54,869 bases of DNA, taken from contig WRIW01000009.1 of NCBI GenBank assembly GCA_009782505.1, positions 1 to 54,869 of the forward strand, read 5' to 3'. The notes below the pieces were generated by a model. It was given only the letters and a program-made list of their open reading frames with translations. It was not told where the DNA came from and did no database searches. This DNA is from Clostridiales bacterium (lineage in GTDB: Bacteria; Bacillota; Peptococcia; DRI-13; UBA5745). Position numbers and translations under genes: made by a program. This document shows, one piece after another, positions 46,328 to 54,064 of this stretch (positions within the stretch are counted from its first letter, which is position 1; every line of letters begins with the position of its first letter).

Positions 46328-46723
46328 CTACAGCAGCTCGCTCATGGGCTTTTCGGATAGCGCGTTCTCGATGAGCTCCTGCAAACGGTTCAGCTCGATA
46401 TGTACATTGCACAGCTTCCCGTGGGTATTGTTTTCACAGACGTAGCCCGGCTGAAGGCACTCGTTCAGGAGCAAATGATCGTCTACGGCGGAAACGATGT
46501 CCAGCAGATTGATATGATCCGTCGTCTTCACCAGTTGGTAGCCTCCCGCGGAGCCGCGCAGGGACCTGACGATACCCGCGTGCTCCAGCTTCTTGAGTAT
46601 CTTATACGCAAAGGGATGGGGGATATGCTCGACTATGCAGACCGACTTGACGGATTTCATCTCCATGTCCGCCAGGGCCCTTACGATACGCATCGCGTAG
46701 TCACATTCTTTTGTTAGAAACAT
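46328..46723 (-). CDS. Rrf2-family transcriptional regulator with three cysteines
   Basis: A 131-residue Rrf2 protein with an N-terminal winged helix (CDYAMRIVRALADM, then IPHPFAYKILKKLEHAGIVRSLRGSAGGYQL as two adjoining stretches). The C-terminal cluster-binding loop has Cys89, Cys96 and Cys105, the three-cysteine spacing seen in IscR- and NsrR-like Fe-S sensors. It probably senses Fe-S status or redox stress. It has a near-consensus promoter and is divergent from the TAXI-TRAP operon, which it may regulate; no suf or isc genes are nearby. Confidence 0.88.
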   Translation of the reverse strand: MFLTKECDYAMRIVRALADMEMKSVKSVCIVEHIPHPFAYKILKKLEHAGIVRSLRGSAGGYQLVKTTDHINLLDIVSAVDDHLLLNECLQPGYVCENNTHGKLCNVHIELNRLQELIENALSEKPMSELL

Positions 46724-46974: not shown

Positions 46975-47949
46975 GTGAAAAAAATCATCACCGTTTCATT
47001 ATTGGTCTTGCTTTTCGCGACTCTGCTGATTGGCTGCGGCTCCGGCGGGGGGCAAGGCGCGGATCAGACGAAGAGGCTGCTCATGGTGACGGGCGGTACC
47101 AGCGGTACCTACTACGCTTACGGCGGCGTCATCGCCAGTACGCTTTCCGAGAAGCTGGCGGGCATTGAGATCACGGCAAACACATCCGGCGCCTCAGCCG
47201 CTAACGCCCGCGCGCTGAAGAACAATGAGGCTGAGCTGGCTATACTGCAAAACGACGTACTGGACTACGCCTACAATGGCACCGTGGTCATGTCGGGAGA
47301 CGGCGCTATGCCCATGCTCCGTACCATCGCCACCCTCTACCCCGAAGTGATACAAGTCGTGGCGACGAAAAACTCAGGCATCAAAAGCGTAGCCGACCTC
47401 AAGGGTAAGCGGGTATGCGTAGGCGACGCCGGCTCCGGCACGGAAGCCAACGCCCGCCAGGTCATGGAAGCCTATGGGCTCAGCTTCGACGACTTAGGCA
47501 AGGTGGAGAACCTTAGCTTCGGCGATGCGGCCACCGCCATGCAGAATGGCACCATCGACGCGTCCTTCACCACCGCGGGCGTGCCGAATCCGGCTATCAC
47601 CGAGCTGAATAGCGCCATCGACATCGTTATCCTCCCGGTAAGCGGGGCGGAAGCGGATAAGCTCATTGCTTCTTACCCCTTCTACTCCAGGTACACCATC
47701 AAGGATTCGGACTATGGCGTGCCCGGCGTAGATACGGTAGCCATCCTTGCCACCATCGCTTGCACGGAAGGCCTGGACGCGGACATCGTTTATACCATCA
47801 CCAAGGGCCTGTTTGAGAACCAAGCGGCTTTGGCGGCGGGCCACGCTAAAGGCAACGAGCTCTCCGCCAAGAGCGCGGTCCAGGGCGTCAGCGTGCCCTT
47901 CCATCCCGGCGCTGAGAAGTATTACAAGGAAGCCGGCGTCCTGAATTAA
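46975..47949 (+). CDS. TAXI-family TRAP transporter solute-binding lipoprotein
   Basis: The 324-residue protein starts with a lipoprotein signal (hydrophobic stretch ending LLIGC, lipidated Cys21) and contains the TAXI family pattern: MVTGGTSGTYYAYGGVIAS, NTSGASAANARALKNNEAELAI in the ligand-binding cleft, LKGKRVCVGDAGSGTEANAR, and DASFTTAGVPNPAI. It captures a small organic acid outside the membrane and delivers it to the fused permease encoded downstream. Family members bind glutamate or related dicarboxylates, but the ligand here is unknown. GTG at 46975 is chosen because AGGAGG lies 10 bases before it. A terminator-like structure follows the stop, which would raise its expression over the permease. 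Confidence 0.93.
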   Translation: MKKIITVSLLVLLFATLLIGCGSGGGQGADQTKRLLMVTGGTSGTYYAYGGVIASTLSEKLAGIEITANTSGASAANARALKNNEAELAILQNDVLDYAYNGTVVMSGDGAMPMLRTIATLYPEVIQVVATKNSGIKSVADLKGKRVCVGDAGSGTEANARQVMEAYGLSFDDLGKVENLSFGDAATAMQNGTIDASFTTAGVPNPAITELNSAIDIVILPVSGAEADKLIASYPFYSRYTIKDSDYGVPGVDTVAILATIACTEGLDADIVYTITKGLFENQAALAAGHAKGNELSAKSAVQGVSVPFHPGAEKYYKEAGVLN

Positions 47950-48502
47950 TGCCGTTTCCCTTAAGAACGCAAGCCAGGGGGCGCCTGTACCACACAGGCG
48001 CCCGTATGCCGCGCTTGCGTTTTTTCTATTTCTGGCCGCTTCCCTCGTCCTGCTTTACCCGGCGCGGTGCCTGACGGCTTCGCTGGGCGGCAAGGTTTTG
48101 TTCGCCTGGCCCATCAAAGCCGGGGACTGCTTCGAGGTCACTTTCATCCATTCGTTGAATCGATCGCCTATCACCGACTTCATCGAGTGGACGGGCAGAG
48201 ACATGGTGGTGCGAAAGAGCAGGTTTAGTACTTTCGGCGCCGGCGTGCCGGTCCCGGCGGAGGGCGTCGGTACGGATTTGATATTTGCCGACGGGCATTA
48301 TGAGCTGATCGGCATCGATAAGCATATGCCCTTTTTCACCATTATGACCCAGGAAGCGCCCAACCATCAGGTAAGCCTTCACGGGCGTGAGGCTTCCCTC
48401 CTGGAGCTTGCGGGCTCCGGCCAGGCGGTGGACGTGGCGGTCAGGAGAATGCCGCTGCTCATCTGCCTTCTCGCCCCGGGGTATATACCTAGTACTCCGT
48501 AA
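47949..48502 (+). pseudogene. DUF1850 protein with a -1 frame break in a six-T tract
   Basis: DUF1850 proteins are small, single-span proteins that accompany TAXI-TRAP permeases. From about 48026 on, the reading FLFLAASLVLLYPARC and IKAGDCFEVTFIHSLNRSPITDFIEW (in two parts) to a stop at 48500 is a clear DUF1850 domain, but this frame has no ATG, GTG or TTG before a late TTG at 48098 and an in-frame TGA at 47942. The ATG at 47949 (overlapping the upstream TAA) and the ATG at 48006 are both in another frame that stops at 48072. Shifting by -1 in the T tract 48020-48025 (heptamer T TTT TTC) joins them into a normal protein beginning MPRLRFFLFL. It may be a real mutation, a sequencing error, phase variation or programmed frameshifting. 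Confidence 0.75.
47966..48025 (+). terminator. Intrinsic terminator/attenuator between binding protein and permease genes
   Basis: An outer stem AACGCAAGC/GCTTGCGTT (47966-47974 with 48013-48021) encloses a 10-bp stem GGGCGCCTGT/ACAGGCGCCC (47979-47988 with 47994-48003). Six T (48020-48025) follow directly. Partial termination here would give more binding protein than permease. The T run is also the frame-break site of the DUF1850 gene. Confidence 0.75.
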
Positions 48503-48540: not shown

Positions 48541-50748
48541 ATGTCGATATTTGATCAGTTGAAAAAATCGGATACGGAAGCCGCCCCCGGGCAAAGGCAG
48601 TCGGGAGACGTGCCGGCCCCTGCAGGCAGCGCGGCGGATCCCGCGGACGAGGTCATCTCAGAGGAGCGACTTGCCGCTCAAGACGCGGCGGCTATACTGG
48701 AGAAGTACGACAAGGAGTCCGCCTTTCGCAATAAGCTTCCGAAGCCCCTTGAGTTAGGTATCGGCTTTATGCTGATCGGCTTTTCCTTGTTTCAGCTTTA
48801 TTCCAGCATATTCACGATACAGGAGCGCCAGCTTCGCCCGGTCCATCTGATGTTTACCTTATCCCTGGTCTATCTGCTATATCCCGCGGCGAAAAAGCTC
48901 AGGCGGGACCGCATCCCCTGGTACGACTGGCTCCTTGCCGCCGCAGCCGTAGCCGTTACCCTATATATACCCGTCAATCTCCACTACCTGGTCAGAAACG
49001 TAGGCAACTACGGTACGGAGCAGATCATCGTCGGCGTCATCGGCATCCTTCTGCTCATGGAAGCCTGCCGGCGCATCGTCGGCACGCCGATCCTGATCAT
49101 TGTGTCCTGTTTCCTGACCTATACGCTCTTCGGGCAGTTCATCATGGGCACCTTCGGCCATCGCGGGTATACATTGCGCCAGATCATCACCCATATGTAC
49201 TTCACCTTGGAAGGCGTTTACGGCACCCCCCTGGGCGTATCGGCTACCTTTATCTTTCTGTTTATCCTCTTCGGCGCCTTTCTCGAGCAGACGGGCGTGG
49301 GTAAATTCTTCATCGACCTGGCTAACGCCATAGCCGGGAAGCGGCTGGGCGGGCCCGCCAAGGTGGCCGTCATCTCTTCGGCTTTCTTCGGCACGGTTTC
49401 CGGCTCCTCAGTGGCAAACACCGTGGGTACCGGCTCCTTCACCATCCCGGCGATGAAGAAGCTGGGATATAAGCCCGAGTTTGCCGGGGCGGTAGAAGCC
49501 GCGGCTTCCACCGGGGGGCAGATCATGCCGCCGGTCATGGGCGCCGCCGCTTTCCTGATGTCCGAGAGCACAGGTTTCCCGTACAGCCGTATCGTATTGT
49601 CCGCCGTCATCCCGGCGATCCTTTACTTCAGCGGTATCCTCATCAGCGTCCACCATGAGGCGCGCCGGGAAAGGCTCAAAGGCATGGAAGACGCCCAGGT
49701 GCCGAAAGCCGGGGAAATCATGAAGGAGCGGGGATATCTGCTTATCCCCCTCGTCTACATGATCTATATGCTTTCCTCCAGGGCTACCCCCGCCTACGCC
49801 GCTTTAGGCGCCATCCTGGCGTCCCTTATGTCGTACAGCATCAAGTGGTGGGCTCTCCTGCCTATCGGCGTCATGGTAGCCTGCAAAGAGATTTTTGTCC
49901 GGCTGCATTTTACCCGCTACGCCCTCATCGCCATCGGTATCTGGATGTGCGTCTGCCTTATCCGGCGGCGGCTTGGCTTCAAGCCCAAGGATATCATCGA
50001 CGGCTTGCGCAACGGCGCCCGGGGCGTACTCATGGTCGCCACCGCCTGCGCCATGGCTGGGATCATCGTCGGCTCCGTCACCCTCACCGGGCTCGGCCTG
50101 AAGTTCGCCACCGGCCTGGCATACCTGTCCGGCGGCAATATCTATCTGCTTATGTTTTTCACTATGCTCTCGTCGCTGGTCCTGGGCATGGGCGTACCTA
50201 CCACGGCAAACTATCTGATCACATCCACGATCTGCGCCCCGGCGATGATCTCCATCCTGGTGGGCATGTACGGTTTATCCGCCCCTACGGCGCCCCTCAT
50301 CATGGGCGCCCATTTATTCGTGTTCTACTTCGGTATCATCGCGGATATCACGCCGCCTGTGGCCCTGGCGGCCATGGCCGGCTCAGCCATCGCCAAGGGC
50401 GAGCCCTTTAAGACAGGCGTCACCGCTACGCGCATCGCCATCGGCGCCTTCATCGTACCCTATATCTTCCTCCTGAACCCGGCTATGCTGATGATGGAGA
50501 CCCACGTCCTGATCATCCTGCAGAGCCTGGGGACCGCCATGCTGGGTATGTATTCCCTGTCCGGCGCCCTGACGGGTTTCGTACAAGACGACTGCAAATG
50601 GTACGAACGCCTGCTTCTGGCGGCGAGCGGCTTGGGGATGATCTACCCCGAGACCATGACCGATTTGATCGGCCTGGCCGTGCTCGCCGTCCTATTCATC
50701 CTGCAGAGGCGGCGCTTCAAGGCGAGGGAAGCCGCCGTAGTGCTTTAA
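48541..50748 (+). CDS. TRAP transporter permease, fused 4TM/12TM (DctQM-type)
   Basis: The 735-residue protein joins the small and large TRAP membrane subunits, as usual for TAXI systems. A 65-residue charged cytoplasmic N-terminus leads into four helices (about 68-185), then the DctM-like core with FFGTVSGSSVANTVGTGSFTIP (about 280-300, two halves of the substrate/sodium site, the second with LGMGVPTTANYLITST) and PPVMGAAAFLM. It drives sodium-dependent uptake of the ligand brought by the binding lipoprotein. GGAGG lies shortly before the ATG. It is separated from the binding-protein gene by the terminator and the broken DUF1850 gene. Confidence 0.94.
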   Translation: MSIFDQLKKSDTEAAPGQRQSGDVPAPAGSAADPADEVISEERLAAQDAAAILEKYDKESAFRNKLPKPLELGIGFMLIGFSLFQLYSSIFTIQERQLRPVHLMFTLSLVYLLYPAAKKLRRDRIPWYDWLLAAAAVAVTLYIPVNLHYLVRNVGNYGTEQIIVGVIGILLLMEACRRIVGTPILIIVSCFLTYTLFGQFIMGTFGHRGYTLRQIITHMYFTLEGVYGTPLGVSATFIFLFILFGAFLEQTGVGKFFIDLANAIAGKRLGGPAKVAVISSAFFGTVSGSSVANTVGTGSFTIPAMKKLGYKPEFAGAVEAAASTGGQIMPPVMGAAAFLMSESTGFPYSRIVLSAVIPAILYFSGILISVHHEARRERLKGMEDAQVPKAGEIMKERGYLLIPLVYMIYMLSSRATPAYAALGAILASLMSYSIKWWALLPIGVMVACKEIFVRLHFTRYALIAIGIWMCVCLIRRRLGFKPKDIIDGLRNGARGVLMVATACAMAGIIVGSVTLTGLGLKFATGLAYLSGGNIYLLMFFTMLSSLVLGMGVPTTANYLITSTICAPAMISILVGMYGLSAPTAPLIMGAHLFVFYFGIIADITPPVALAAMAGSAIAKGEPFKTGVTATRIAIGAFIVPYIFLLNPAMLMMETHVLIILQSLGTAMLGMYSLSGALTGFVQDDCKWYERLLLAASGLGMIYPETMTDLIGLAVLAVLFILQRRRFKAREAAVVL

Positions 50749-50776: not shown

Positions 50777-51517
50777 TTAGCGCCCGTAGACGCCCCGCAT
50801 CACTTCGCCCACCCGCCTGGAGCGGCAGTCCGGGCAGAAGCCGGCGTCGTCCAGGCCGGCGATGCCGGCGGCATGGCGGGCAGCCTCTTCCGTGGTATAC
50901 GGCTCGCCGCAGCGGGAGCACTTCGCCATCTTAAACGTCCTACCCCATATCTCCCGGGTCTCCCGGGTCTGCTCCACAGGGATCGCTTTCGTGGGGCAGA
51001 CTTCCGCGCAAGACCCGCAGCCGATACAACTTACAGGCGCTTCCTCATAAGGAGGCGCTACTTTTTTGATAACGCCCCTGTTGACCGTGGATATAGCGCC
51101 CGTCCCCAGTACGGCGCAGGCGCGGGCGCACAGCCCGCACATGACGCAGCGCTCGCCTGACATGGCTTCGAAGCGGCTGTCTTCAGGGACATGGTAGTAG
51201 GCGCAGAGCTGCCTGACCCGTTCGGCTTCGGGCGCGCGGAGGCGCAGCAGCGCGAGATTTTGCCGGCGTATCGCCGCGACCTCTTCTGTATCGGTGCGGA
51301 CTTCGAGCCCTTCCGAGACGGGGTATACGCAGGCTGTGACTATCCTCGATCTGCTGCCTTCCCCGATCTCCACCAGGCAAAGCCTGCAGCAGCCCTGCTC
51401 GGGCAAGCCGTCGTGGTGGCAGAGGGTAGGTATAGGGATGAGGTTGCGCCGGGCTACATTCAGCACGAATTCGCCCGCTTCAGCGGGATAAGACGTCCCG
51501 TTGATCCTGATTTCCAT
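50777..51517 (-). CDS. 2Fe-2S / 2x[4Fe-4S] electron-transfer subunit with C-terminal Cys4 site (HoxU/NuoG-N type)
   Basis: The 246-residue protein resembles the diaphorase subunit HoxU or the N-terminus of NuoG. It has a plant-type ferredoxin domain with Cys33, Cys44, Cys47 and Cys63, then two [4Fe-4S] sites (Cys124/127/130/134 and Cys164/167/170/174). The last 50 residues add CSRC (200/203) and CPDC (228/231), likely a zinc ribbon or rubredoxin-like site not usual in HoxU. Its ATG at 51517 overlaps the stop of the NuoF-like gene (TGATG). In this operon it would pass electrons between the aldehyde oxidoreductase and the flavin subunit. It is convergent with the TRAP gene. Confidence 0.85.
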   Translation of the reverse strand: MEIRINGTSYPAEAGEFVLNVARRNLIPIPTLCHHDGLPEQGCCRLCLVEIGEGSRSRIVTACVYPVSEGLEVRTDTEEVAAIRRQNLALLRLRAPEAERVRQLCAYYHVPEDSRFEAMSGERCVMCGLCARACAVLGTGAISTVNRGVIKKVAPPYEEAPVSCIGCGSCAEVCPTKAIPVEQTRETREIWGRTFKMAKCSRCGEPYTTEEAARHAAGIAGLDDAGFCPDCRSRRVGEVMRGVYGR

Positions 51518-53295
51518 CACGATACCACCGCCTTTTTCTGAACGTGCACAGCTCCGGATGGACAAGCGCCGCGGCAGGAGCCGCAGGCCGCGCACCCGGC
51601 CGCTTGGATAGCATGGGCTTTCCCAACCTCCCCTGATATACAGCCGGCGGGGCAAGCCTTTTGGCATAACCCGCAGCCCGTGCAGGCCGACGGGTCTATG
51701 ACATAGGCGCTCAGCCCGGGGCAGACCCCTGCCCGGCAAAAGCCTTCGTGGATATGCTCCTCATACTCTTCAGGAAAGTAGTCCAGCGTAGTCAGGACCG
51801 GGTTTGCGGCAGTCTTGCCCAGGCTGCATAGGGAGCCCCCGCGCATAGCCTCCGCTATACCGCGCATCAGCTCTACGTCGCCGGGTTTTCCCTGGCCTTC
51901 GCAGACGTCGGTGAGTATCTCCAGCAGGCGCCGGAGCCCCTCCCTGCACGGCGTGCATTTGCCGCAGCTTTCCCCGCTGAGGAAAGACACGTAGTAGCGG
52001 GCGACTTCCGCCATACATACACGGTCGTCCATGACGATCATGCCGCCGGAGCCCATCATCGCCCCATGGGATTCCAGGCTGTCAAAGTCAACAGGCAGGT
52101 CAAGCATGGATCCCGGGATGCACCCCCCGGAAGGCCCGCCGGTCTGCACCGCTTTAAACGTACGATTTCTTCCCACGCCACCGCCGATGTTGAATATCAA
52201 ATCCCGGAGCGTGGTCCCCATGGGGACTTCAACGAGCCCTGTGCGCCGCACATGCCCCACCAGCGCGAACACTTTCGTCCCTTTCGAGCCGTCAGTCCCC
52301 AGCGCGGCGAACTTCTCCGCGCCCTCCGCGATGATGACCGGGATGTTGGCCAGGGTCTCCACATTATTTAGCACCGTAGGCTGATCCCATAAACCGCGCT
52401 GCACGGAGCGTATATACTTCGCCCGGGGCTCCCCTACACGGCCTTCGACGGACGCCATCAAAGCCGTGGACTCGCCGCAGACGAAAGCGCCGCCGCCCCG
52501 GACGACCTCGATGTCGAAGCCCTTTCCACAGGCGGCCAGCCACCCGGCTTCCCGGGCTTGTTCGATGGCAAGGCGCACATGATGGAGGGCCAGGGCGTAT
52601 TCGTCCCGGATGTAGAAAAAACCTTTCGACGCGCCCACGGCAAGGGCCGCTATGCACAAACCTTCGATGACGCTGTGGGGGTCGCCCTCCAGGATCGAGC
52701 GATCCATGAATGCCCCGGGGTCGCCTTCGTCCCCGTTGCAAATCACATACTTCGGATGGTTCGCGTAAGACGCGCACTCCCGCCATTTCCGCCCGGTGGG
52801 GAAGCCTGCCCCTCCCCTGCCGCGCAGCCCGGAGCGTTCCACCTGGGCGATGATCTCTTCGGGCGTCATCTGCCTTGCCCGCTCCAGGGCGCGGTAGCCG
52901 CCGGCGGCGGCGTAGTCGCCTATGTCCGCCGGATCGATGGTTCCGATGTTACGGAGGGCTACTTTTATTTGAGGGCGATAGAAAGGGTGCTCAGACTGGC
53001 TTTTGATCCGCACGCCGTCGTCCCGGCGGTAGAGCAGGCGCTCGAGGGGCTGCCCTGATTTTGCCGAGCTTACGATTTCCGGGACGTCCGCAGGCGCGAC
53101 CTTATAATAACTCACATCGTCCGGCAGGATTTTTACGATGGGGCCGTTTTCGCAGAAACCGTTGCAGCCGGTAGATTTGATTTTTATCTCCAAGTCCGCG
53201 CCGGTTTCCTTTATGGACCGTTCCAAAGCCTCCAGGACGTCCTTGCTGCCCCCGGCGATACAACCTGTGCCGCAGCACAGAAGTAATGTCTTCAT
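51517..53295 (-). CDS. NuoF/HydB-type NAD(P)H-binding flavoprotein subunit
   Basis: The 592-residue protein has the same plan as the diaphorase subunit of bifurcating hydrogenases: an N-terminal thioredoxin-like 2Fe-2S domain (Cys8, Cys12, Cys44, Cys48), the FMN and NAD(H) domain (GLRGRGGAGFPTGRKW, about 154-169; CNGDEGDPGAFMDR; GGGAFVCGESTAL), the [4Fe-4S] site SCGKCTPCREG with a fourth Cys in SLCSLGKTA, and two C-terminal [4Fe-4S] clusters (CTGCGLCQKACP and CAACGSCRGACP). It should reduce NAD or oxidise NADH, with possible coupling to ferredoxin. Its start overlaps the NuoE-like stop by four bases. Confidence 0.93.
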   Translation of the reverse strand: MKTLLLCCGTGCIAGGSKDVLEALERSIKETGADLEIKIKSTGCNGFCENGPIVKILPDDVSYYKVAPADVPEIVSSAKSGQPLERLLYRRDDGVRIKSQSEHPFYRPQIKVALRNIGTIDPADIGDYAAAGGYRALERARQMTPEEIIAQVERSGLRGRGGAGFPTGRKWRECASYANHPKYVICNGDEGDPGAFMDRSILEGDPHSVIEGLCIAALAVGASKGFFYIRDEYALALHHVRLAIEQAREAGWLAACGKGFDIEVVRGGGAFVCGESTALMASVEGRVGEPRAKYIRSVQRGLWDQPTVLNNVETLANIPVIIAEGAEKFAALGTDGSKGTKVFALVGHVRRTGLVEVPMGTTLRDLIFNIGGGVGRNRTFKAVQTGGPSGGCIPGSMLDLPVDFDSLESHGAMMGSGGMIVMDDRVCMAEVARYYVSFLSGESCGKCTPCREGLRRLLEILTDVCEGQGKPGDVELMRGIAEAMRGGSLCSLGKTAANPVLTTLDYFPEEYEEHIHEGFCRAGVCPGLSAYVIDPSACTGCGLCQKACPAGCISGEVGKAHAIQAAGCAACGSCRGACPSGAVHVQKKAVVS

Positions 53296-53765
53296 CCGGC
53301 AGCCTCCTTCCTGTATGACGCGATGAGGGCCGAAAGGGATCCCGGCGTGACTTTGCCGTAGTATTTATCACCTATCATCATCGCCGGCGCGATGCTGCAC
53401 GACCCCAGGCAGTTCACCGTCTCCAAAGAGAATAAGCCGTCCGCCGTCGTCTCCCCGGCTCCGATGCCCAGCTCCCCCCTCAGGCTGCTCAGCAGGAGGG
53501 GCTCGCCTTTCAGGTGGCAGGCTGTGCCGTCGCATAAGCGGATGACGTACTTCCCCTTCGGCTTAAGGCTGAGGGCCTTGTAGAAGCTTGCCATGGCGTA
53601 GAGGGCCGACAGAGGGCGCCCAAGCCGCGCCGACGTCGCCTCCAGCCCTTCCCGGGGTACGTAACCCAACCGGCGCTGCATATCCTGCATCGCCGGCAGG
53701 GAGAAACGCTGCTCCGCCGGATAGCTTTCCAGTATTTCCTGTATGATTTCCTTCAAAAGCCTCAC
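53292..53765 (-). CDS. NuoE/HydC-type 2Fe-2S subunit
   Basis: A protein of about 157 residues with an N-terminal helical bundle (EILESYPAEQRFSLPAMQDMQ) and a thioredoxin-like 2Fe-2S domain whose cysteines are in LCDGTACHLKG and NCLGSCSIAP, the NuoE pattern. It partners the NuoF-like subunit at the NAD-reactive end of the complex. The start is uncertain: GTG 53765 (used here) follows GGAAGG, and TTG 53756 follows AAGGTGA. It is 26 bases downstream of the MoaD-like gene. Confidence 0.9.
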   Translation of the reverse strand: MRLLKEIIQEILESYPAEQRFSLPAMQDMQRRLGYVPREGLEATSARLGRPLSALYAMASFYKALSLKPKGKYVIRLCDGTACHLKGEPLLLSSLRGELGIGAGETTADGLFSLETVNCLGSCSIAPAMMIGDKYYGKVTPGSLSALIASYRKEAAG

Positions 53766-53791
53766 CTTGCCTTCCTTGACGCCGGCCCGCG

Positions 53792-54064
53792 TCAGCCTCC
53801 CGCTACCATGGGGAATATATGGATCGTATCGTTTTCCACAAGCGCCGCGTCCAGGCCGCCCAGATGCTCGATGTGCCGGCCGTTTACCATGAGGATCACA
53901 TCCCCCGGCTCTTCCGAGCCGGGGGCGTAGATTTTCTTGCGGAGGGTCTCCCCGTACTTCGCGCACAAAGACCGGAGCAGCGTCCGCATGTCCGGCTCAG
54001 CCGGCCACGGTTCCTGCTTGCAGCCCGTGATATCACGGATATAGGCGAAATATAGAATCTTCAT
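53792..54064 (-). CDS. MoaD/ThiS-family ubiquitin-like sulfur carrier
   Basis: A 90-residue beta-grasp protein ending in the required Gly-Gly (FPMVAGG), through which sulfur is carried as a thiocarboxylate to make the dithiolene of molybdopterin. The start is MKILYFAYIRDITG, and VILMVNGRHIEHLGG is the central motif. MoaD-like genes are often placed beside tungsten aldehyde oxidoreductases, whose cofactor is a bis-pterin. It lies 54 bases downstream of the aor gene. Confidence 0.92.
   Translation of the reverse strand: MKILYFAYIRDITGCKQEPWPAEPDMRTLLRSLCAKYGETLRKKIYAPGSEEPGDVILMVNGRHIEHLGGLDAALVENDTIHIFPMVAGG

Follow-up and report, generated by a model that had tools for sequence, protein, structure and literature searches.

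The window, by which is meant the whole stretch of DNA analyzed here (54,869 nucleotides), is one contig (C9) of an assembly that comprises 73 contigs, is 83% complete and looks metagenome-derived. It carries an operon for a TAXI-type TRAP transporter in which a gene for a solute-binding protein (SBP) is followed by a DUF1850 gene and then by a gene for a permease, the three being recognized by PF16868, PF08905, and PF06808, respectively. The position of DUF1850 between the TAXI SBP and the TRAP permease is identical in relatives; a search of one literature library found no paper on DUF1850. The genes and features of the junction are as follows.

46975-47949, forward strand: TAXI-type TRAP solute-binding protein (PF16868, 289.9 bits)
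47945-48502, forward strand: DUF1850 frame, open from stop to stop, encoding the signal anchor RRPYAALAFFLFLAASLVLLYPA and then PF08905
47949-48074, forward strand: frame-0 open reading frame that starts at the coupled ATG (TAATG), encodes 41 aa and does not share the frame of DUF1850
47963-48024, forward strand: long two-part hairpin (RNAfold -43.6 kcal/mol, z -5.3)
48020-48025, forward strand: T6 tract, the candidate terminator's U tract, giving Phe-Phe (TTT TTT) when read in the DUF1850 frame
48541-50748, forward strand: TRAP permease, fused and DctM-like (PF06808, 288.6 bits)

The SBP gene begins with GTG behind a strong Shine-Dalgarno sequence (duplex -12.1 kcal/mol), and that of the permease is also strong (-9.5 kcal/mol). 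The frame-0 starts at the SBP/DUF1850 junction have none (-2.9 and -2.5 kcal/mol). A Shine-Dalgarno sequence is missing before DUF1850 in several relatives as well, and its lack is consistent with low, coupled translation of this gene. Divergent from the operon lies an ORF of 131 aa (46328-46723 of the window, reverse strand) that resembles Rrf2-type regulators and may regulate the transporter genes. Downstream of the transporter, and convergent with it, ORFs with cysteine motifs (50777-53966, reverse strand) appear similar to subunits of NADP-reducing hydrogenase or of the NuoF type. Permease-related matches number more than 20 per genome in two genomes of the same genus (G003 and G004), against one in the genome of the window.

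An earlier, sequence-only reading of this DNA had described a DUF1850 gene whose sensible starts lie in a frame other than that of its conserved sequence, and the description was confirmed. ATG 47949, which together with the overlapping SBP stop makes up TAATG and is coupled to that stop as had been claimed, shares frame 0 with ATG 48006, and translation in this frame gives 41 aa from the former and stops at 48072-48074. PF08905 is matched only in the -1 frame (50.7-52.4 bits against a cut-off of 27), within an open frame of 185 aa that is free of stops. No ordinary start codon precedes the signal anchor in the DUF1850 frame, the first ATG, GTG, or TTG of which is the TTG at 48098; a truncated DUF1850 protein initiated at this TTG was ruled out, as the signal anchor seen in homologues would be missing. 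The mismatch between the annotated starts and the DUF1850 frame is real in the assembly. Since the DUF1850 domain is intact and its codons are typical (0.157 nats per codon; true coding sequence has a median of 0.24), it is not a pseudogene of long standing. The place of the join is less constrained than had been supposed. It had been put on T TTT TTC, but both frames are open over 47951-48071, about 120 nt, and the DUF1850 frame reaches back to 47945; a shift anywhere in the interval open in both frames would connect them, so that the join need not lie at the T tract. The addition of one T does restore the protein, as claimed, but it is not the only one-base shift that joins the frames.

Between the SBP and membrane-component genes lies a GC-rich stem-loop with a U-rich tract. 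Its outer stem (47963-47974/48013-48024), one arm of which pairs part of T6, is separated by an internal loop from an inner stem (47977-47988/47994-48010) that comprises 10 continuous pairs and two more past a bulge. Shuffled sequences fold at -28.0 +/- 2.9 kcal/mol and none of 200 was as stable as the hairpin itself. The strong hairpin of the sequence-only reading is thereby placed far beyond chance, but as a terminator whose T run is the T tract it is absent from the list returned by a simple terminator scan, its stem being in two parts with an internal loop. A 97-base search of the genome found a single copy, which rules out a repeat or mobile element as the origin of the hairpin, and a search of Rfam gave no meaningful match. 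The slippery heptamer that had been pointed out, T TTT TTC at 48020-48026, is indeed in phase with frame 0 and has the form X XXY YYZ. In-frame T TTT TTC elsewhere in the genome is rare, although not unique (12 per 136,656 sampled coding codons).

The frame that codes ahead of the T tract was assessed with a codon usage model trained on 455 kb from the same genome. The likelihood of the DUF1850 frame relative to frame 0 was 10.5:1 over the 25 codons before the join, 4.5:1 over the first twelve (47951-47986), and 19.5:1 over the six codons that end with T6, T6 included. Before the tract, frame 0 resembles a wrong frame, only 0.2% of true coding segments scoring as badly against their alternative frame. 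A homologue profile scored the N-terminus in the DUF1850 frame higher by 1.6-3.4 bits across six alignments. The uncharged anchor is 21 residues long in the DUF1850 frame, which is near the median, compared with 15 if the join is at the T tract, and anchors of 15 residues or fewer occur in only 3 of about 54 homologues. The residues before the tract in the DUF1850 frame, RRPYAALA-FFLFLAASLVLL, also extend the signal anchor better than the frame-0 residues ARMPRLR-FFLFL. Codon usage, profile, and transmembrane length agree in mildly favoring a DUF1850 frame that would already be running through the 3′ arm of the hairpin and the T tract; this evidence is modest, coming from at most 25 codons under the constraint of the hairpin and from lines that partly depend on one another.

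Operons for comparison were found by a permease search of genome contigs, and their DUF1850 proteins show 35-60% identity, the best relative being at 59.6%; no near-identical DUF1850 was found in genomes of the genus, family, and order or in viral contigs. Counting that of the window, 59 DUF1850 frames differed from one another, and the conserved His-Ser allowed 55 of them to be anchored. An ATG, GTG, or TTG lies in frame ahead of the anchor region in 53 of the 55, the exceptions being the gene of the window and one homologue, L075 (3418-3470), whose start is probably a CTG located eight bases past GGAGG (LKKTLSIPL...). The two-frame arrangement was sought in all 55 anchored sequences and none of the homologues requires a shift, so nothing here points to selected recoding. 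Comparison of the tract in relatives had been proposed together with the frame break. Two genomes from the same family as that of the window (G007 and G008, loci L122 and L126) have a hairpin and T6 inside DUF1850 codons; the tract is read in frame there, as GCC TTT TTT, without a shift, a fourth modest line in favor of the DUF1850 frame, and an in-frame GTG adjoins the SBP stop. Their residues at this point, SRRAG-LGCLSAFF and SRRAG-YVCLSAFF, are comparable with HRRP-YAALAFF of the window. Among the four nearest relatives of the DUF1850 protein (L046, L038, L045, and L043; 50-60% identity), a strong junction hairpin is present only in L045, and it differs in sequence; homology of the hairpin is therefore not demonstrated, and its embedding in the gene seems to come and go.

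Hairpins nevertheless recur at this junction. With a fixed criterion (a stem of at least 8 pairs, -14 kcal/mol or lower and a tail with 4 T or more), terminator-like hairpins were found at 21 of 39 non-redundant junctions, compared with 22 of 944 equally sized tiles cut from these loci (Fisher p 4e-21), a contrast part of which may be explained by the control tiles being mostly coding and the junction partly intergenic. The window hairpin fails this simple criterion on account of its two-part stem and is excluded from the 21. When the T criterion was dropped, a strong hairpin was present at 36 of 55 junctions: 17 overlap the signal-anchor (transmembrane) codons of the open DUF1850 frame, 6, including that of the window, abut them and 13 lie upstream, where the T run often immediately precedes the ATG. 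The 17 are unaffected by the objection from intergenic sequence because they lie inside anchor codons, although they include close relatives (the L011-L023 group), so that independent cases of embedding number fewer than 17. In that group, the hairpin GCCGCAACC...GGTTGCGGTTATTTT (about 1378-1406) is entirely inside signal-anchor codons, its loop varying among genomes and its stem being kept. Five junctions from different genomes (L007, L009, L021, L025, and L036) carry near-identical GAGCATTGG hairpins whose TTTT runs into the DUF1850 start, and the sequence ATTTTATGA exemplifies a terminator that directly abuts a start codon.

By analogy with internal terminators characterized in other transporter operons, we regard an internal terminator set within a gene, a variation on a type already known, as the most likely identity of the hairpin. 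We consider it probable that such an in-gene terminator is combined with a mismatch that arises upstream of the T tract, through either a one-base indel or a non-standard start. The hairpin would lie inside the first DUF1850 codons and act as an internal intrinsic-terminator-like element of the TAXI-TRAP operon, stopping part of the transcription that passes the SBP gene and leaving SBP in excess over DUF1850 and the permease. Its U tract would double as hydrophobic codons of the signal anchor, TTT being Phe, so that the DUF1850 frame would cross the hairpin and T tract unshifted; since U-rich codons specify hydrophobic residues, a U tract could probably be fitted into such codons at little cost. 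The mismatch with ATG 47949 would be due to a one-base indel, whether a true mutation or an assembly error, between this ATG and the 3′ arm of the hairpin, or else to a DUF1850 frame whose translation begins at a non-standard codon. Both the attenuation and the place and nature of the defect are what we infer from these comparisons, and it counts against this reading that the favored DUF1850 frame has no ordinary start. The earlier suggestion that the site sets transporter assembly is plausible if it operates through attenuation of transcription at the hairpin; a switch at the T tract is not supported.

An indel of either origin can be considered against the quality of the assembly. A Viterbi scan of 455 kb found no genuine frameshift, in a setting where simulated single deletions were detected in 123 of 252 cases (about 49%); seven candidate frameshifts in the same 455 kb were all ordinary gene ends or overlaps. 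The assembly is therefore not error-ridden, and in the absence of another frameshift in this sample an error is not favored by base rate. A hairpin of such strength would itself be a likely spot for a local error.

Several other explanations were weighed. Rather than a terminator, the hairpin might be an element that stabilizes the 3′ end of the SBP mRNA or acts as a barrier to its processing, or only a by-product of coding, a view that deserves consideration but that we regard as unlikely. It would suit the two-part stem and the partly paired U tract that the simple terminator scan missed; however, hairpins with T-rich tails recur at the junction, paired U tracts and mid-stem gaps occur in internal terminators that have been tested (PMC9045158), and the observed z of -5.3 makes it unlikely that the hairpin merely results from the coding sequence.

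It is likewise rather improbable that the defect is an indel within T6 itself, which would be a T7 that has lost one T through mutation, replication slippage, or an error of sequencing or assembly, with initiation at ATG 47949 or 48006 and frame 0 read through the hairpin. T6 is the longest homopolymer of the interval in which both frames are open, the overlap of ATG 47949 with the SBP stop is ideal for coupling, and a start at ATG 48006 would place the N-terminus 48 residues ahead of the conserved His, inside the range of homologues. Against this stand the poor codon score of frame 0 before the tract, the short anchor of 15 uncharged residues, and the lower score against the homologue profile. 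Taking all causes together, a join located at the T tract is unlikely, most of its chance lying with an indel or error and very little with recoding.

One branch of the explanation that we prefer, an intact gene read by translational coupling from a non-standard start in the DUF1850 frame, such as an ATT at 47945 that overlaps the SBP stop, is doubtful when taken by itself. The frame is open back to that position and its first twelve codons are favored by codon usage; a weak Shine-Dalgarno-like stretch is present upstream (-5.2 kcal/mol), L075 also lacks ATG, GTG, and TTG and has a CTG after GGAGG, and several relatives begin DUF1850 without a Shine-Dalgarno sequence. ATT starts are, however, very rare, the Shine-Dalgarno-like stretch is poorly spaced, and an ordinary start codon is available in nearly all of the anchored sequences.

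Programmed recoding at the T tract, in which slippage of RNA polymerase at the hairpin and U tract, or a -1 frameshift of the ribosome at T TTT TTC, would yield DUF1850 from ATG 47949, is very improbable, and the notion of a recoding site or phase switch is not upheld. Slippage mediated by a stem-loop with terminator-like features is documented for an insertion sequence of Roseiflexus (Penno et al., 2015, as cited in PMC5009743), and in IS1447 of Firmicutes a stem-loop lies next to A7-A9, on which +1 slippage takes place (PMC6211511). As in the T5C5 of Roseiflexus IS630 and the A7-A9 of IS1447, a hairpin in the window stands directly upstream of a homopolymer where frames overlap. Unlike in these systems, the tract here has only six T, whereas slippage required at least 7 T with E. 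coli RNA polymerase (PMC6260861) and at least 7 A in IS1447 (PMC6211511). A shift here would also need an added base, yet at stem-loop-stimulated T6-T9 tracts base deletion predominates, according to the account of Penno et al. given in PMC6260861. The shifted arrangement, moreover, is not conserved among the homologues examined, and the T6 of the same-family relatives is in frame. The likeness to -1 frameshifting of the dnaX/IS3 type lies in the correct frame-0 phase of T TTT TTC; unlike those cases, the region that follows the heptamer (48031-48110) is no more stably folded than shuffled sequence (z +0.97), the product frame is unsupported upstream, where frame 0 looks non-coding, and the arrangement is unconserved. 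A single device joining terminator and recoding, in which polymerase escaping at the U tract adds a U and DUF1850 could be translated from the coupled ATG on read-through transcripts alone, merits hardly any credence.

If the frame break stems from an indel, it matters little as such. Of wider consequence would be the appearance, in several lineages, of an internal terminator of TAXI-TRAP operons written into the codons for the DUF1850 signal anchor, where hydrophobic codons (NUN) readily accommodate a U tract. If this is true, the ratio of SBP to the membrane part of the transporter could be set with no need of an intergenic region, and the passage of ribosomes translating DUF1850 over the hairpin might itself decide whether transcription continues. 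Such starts should also serve as a warning, as they will be misread by gene finders and frameshift scans.

The closest parallel to an internal terminator at this junction comes from the ABC transporter operons of cellulolytic Clostridia, in which stem-loops downstream of SBP genes act as partial internal terminators and SBP transcripts are in excess (Wu et al., 2022; PMC9045158). The internal terminators tested in that study have long stems, unpaired regions in mid-stem, and U tracts paired to 5′ sequence. As in those importers, the stem-loop of the window lies between an SBP encoded by the first gene and a membrane component; it has a long stem, a mid-stem gap, and a U tract paired with 5′ sequence, and would be expected to reduce downstream transcription. 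The window differs from the ABC operons in that it holds a TRAP (TAXI) operon and that termination is here a prediction, and its hairpin, in place of an intergenic location, would lie within the codons of the gene that follows.
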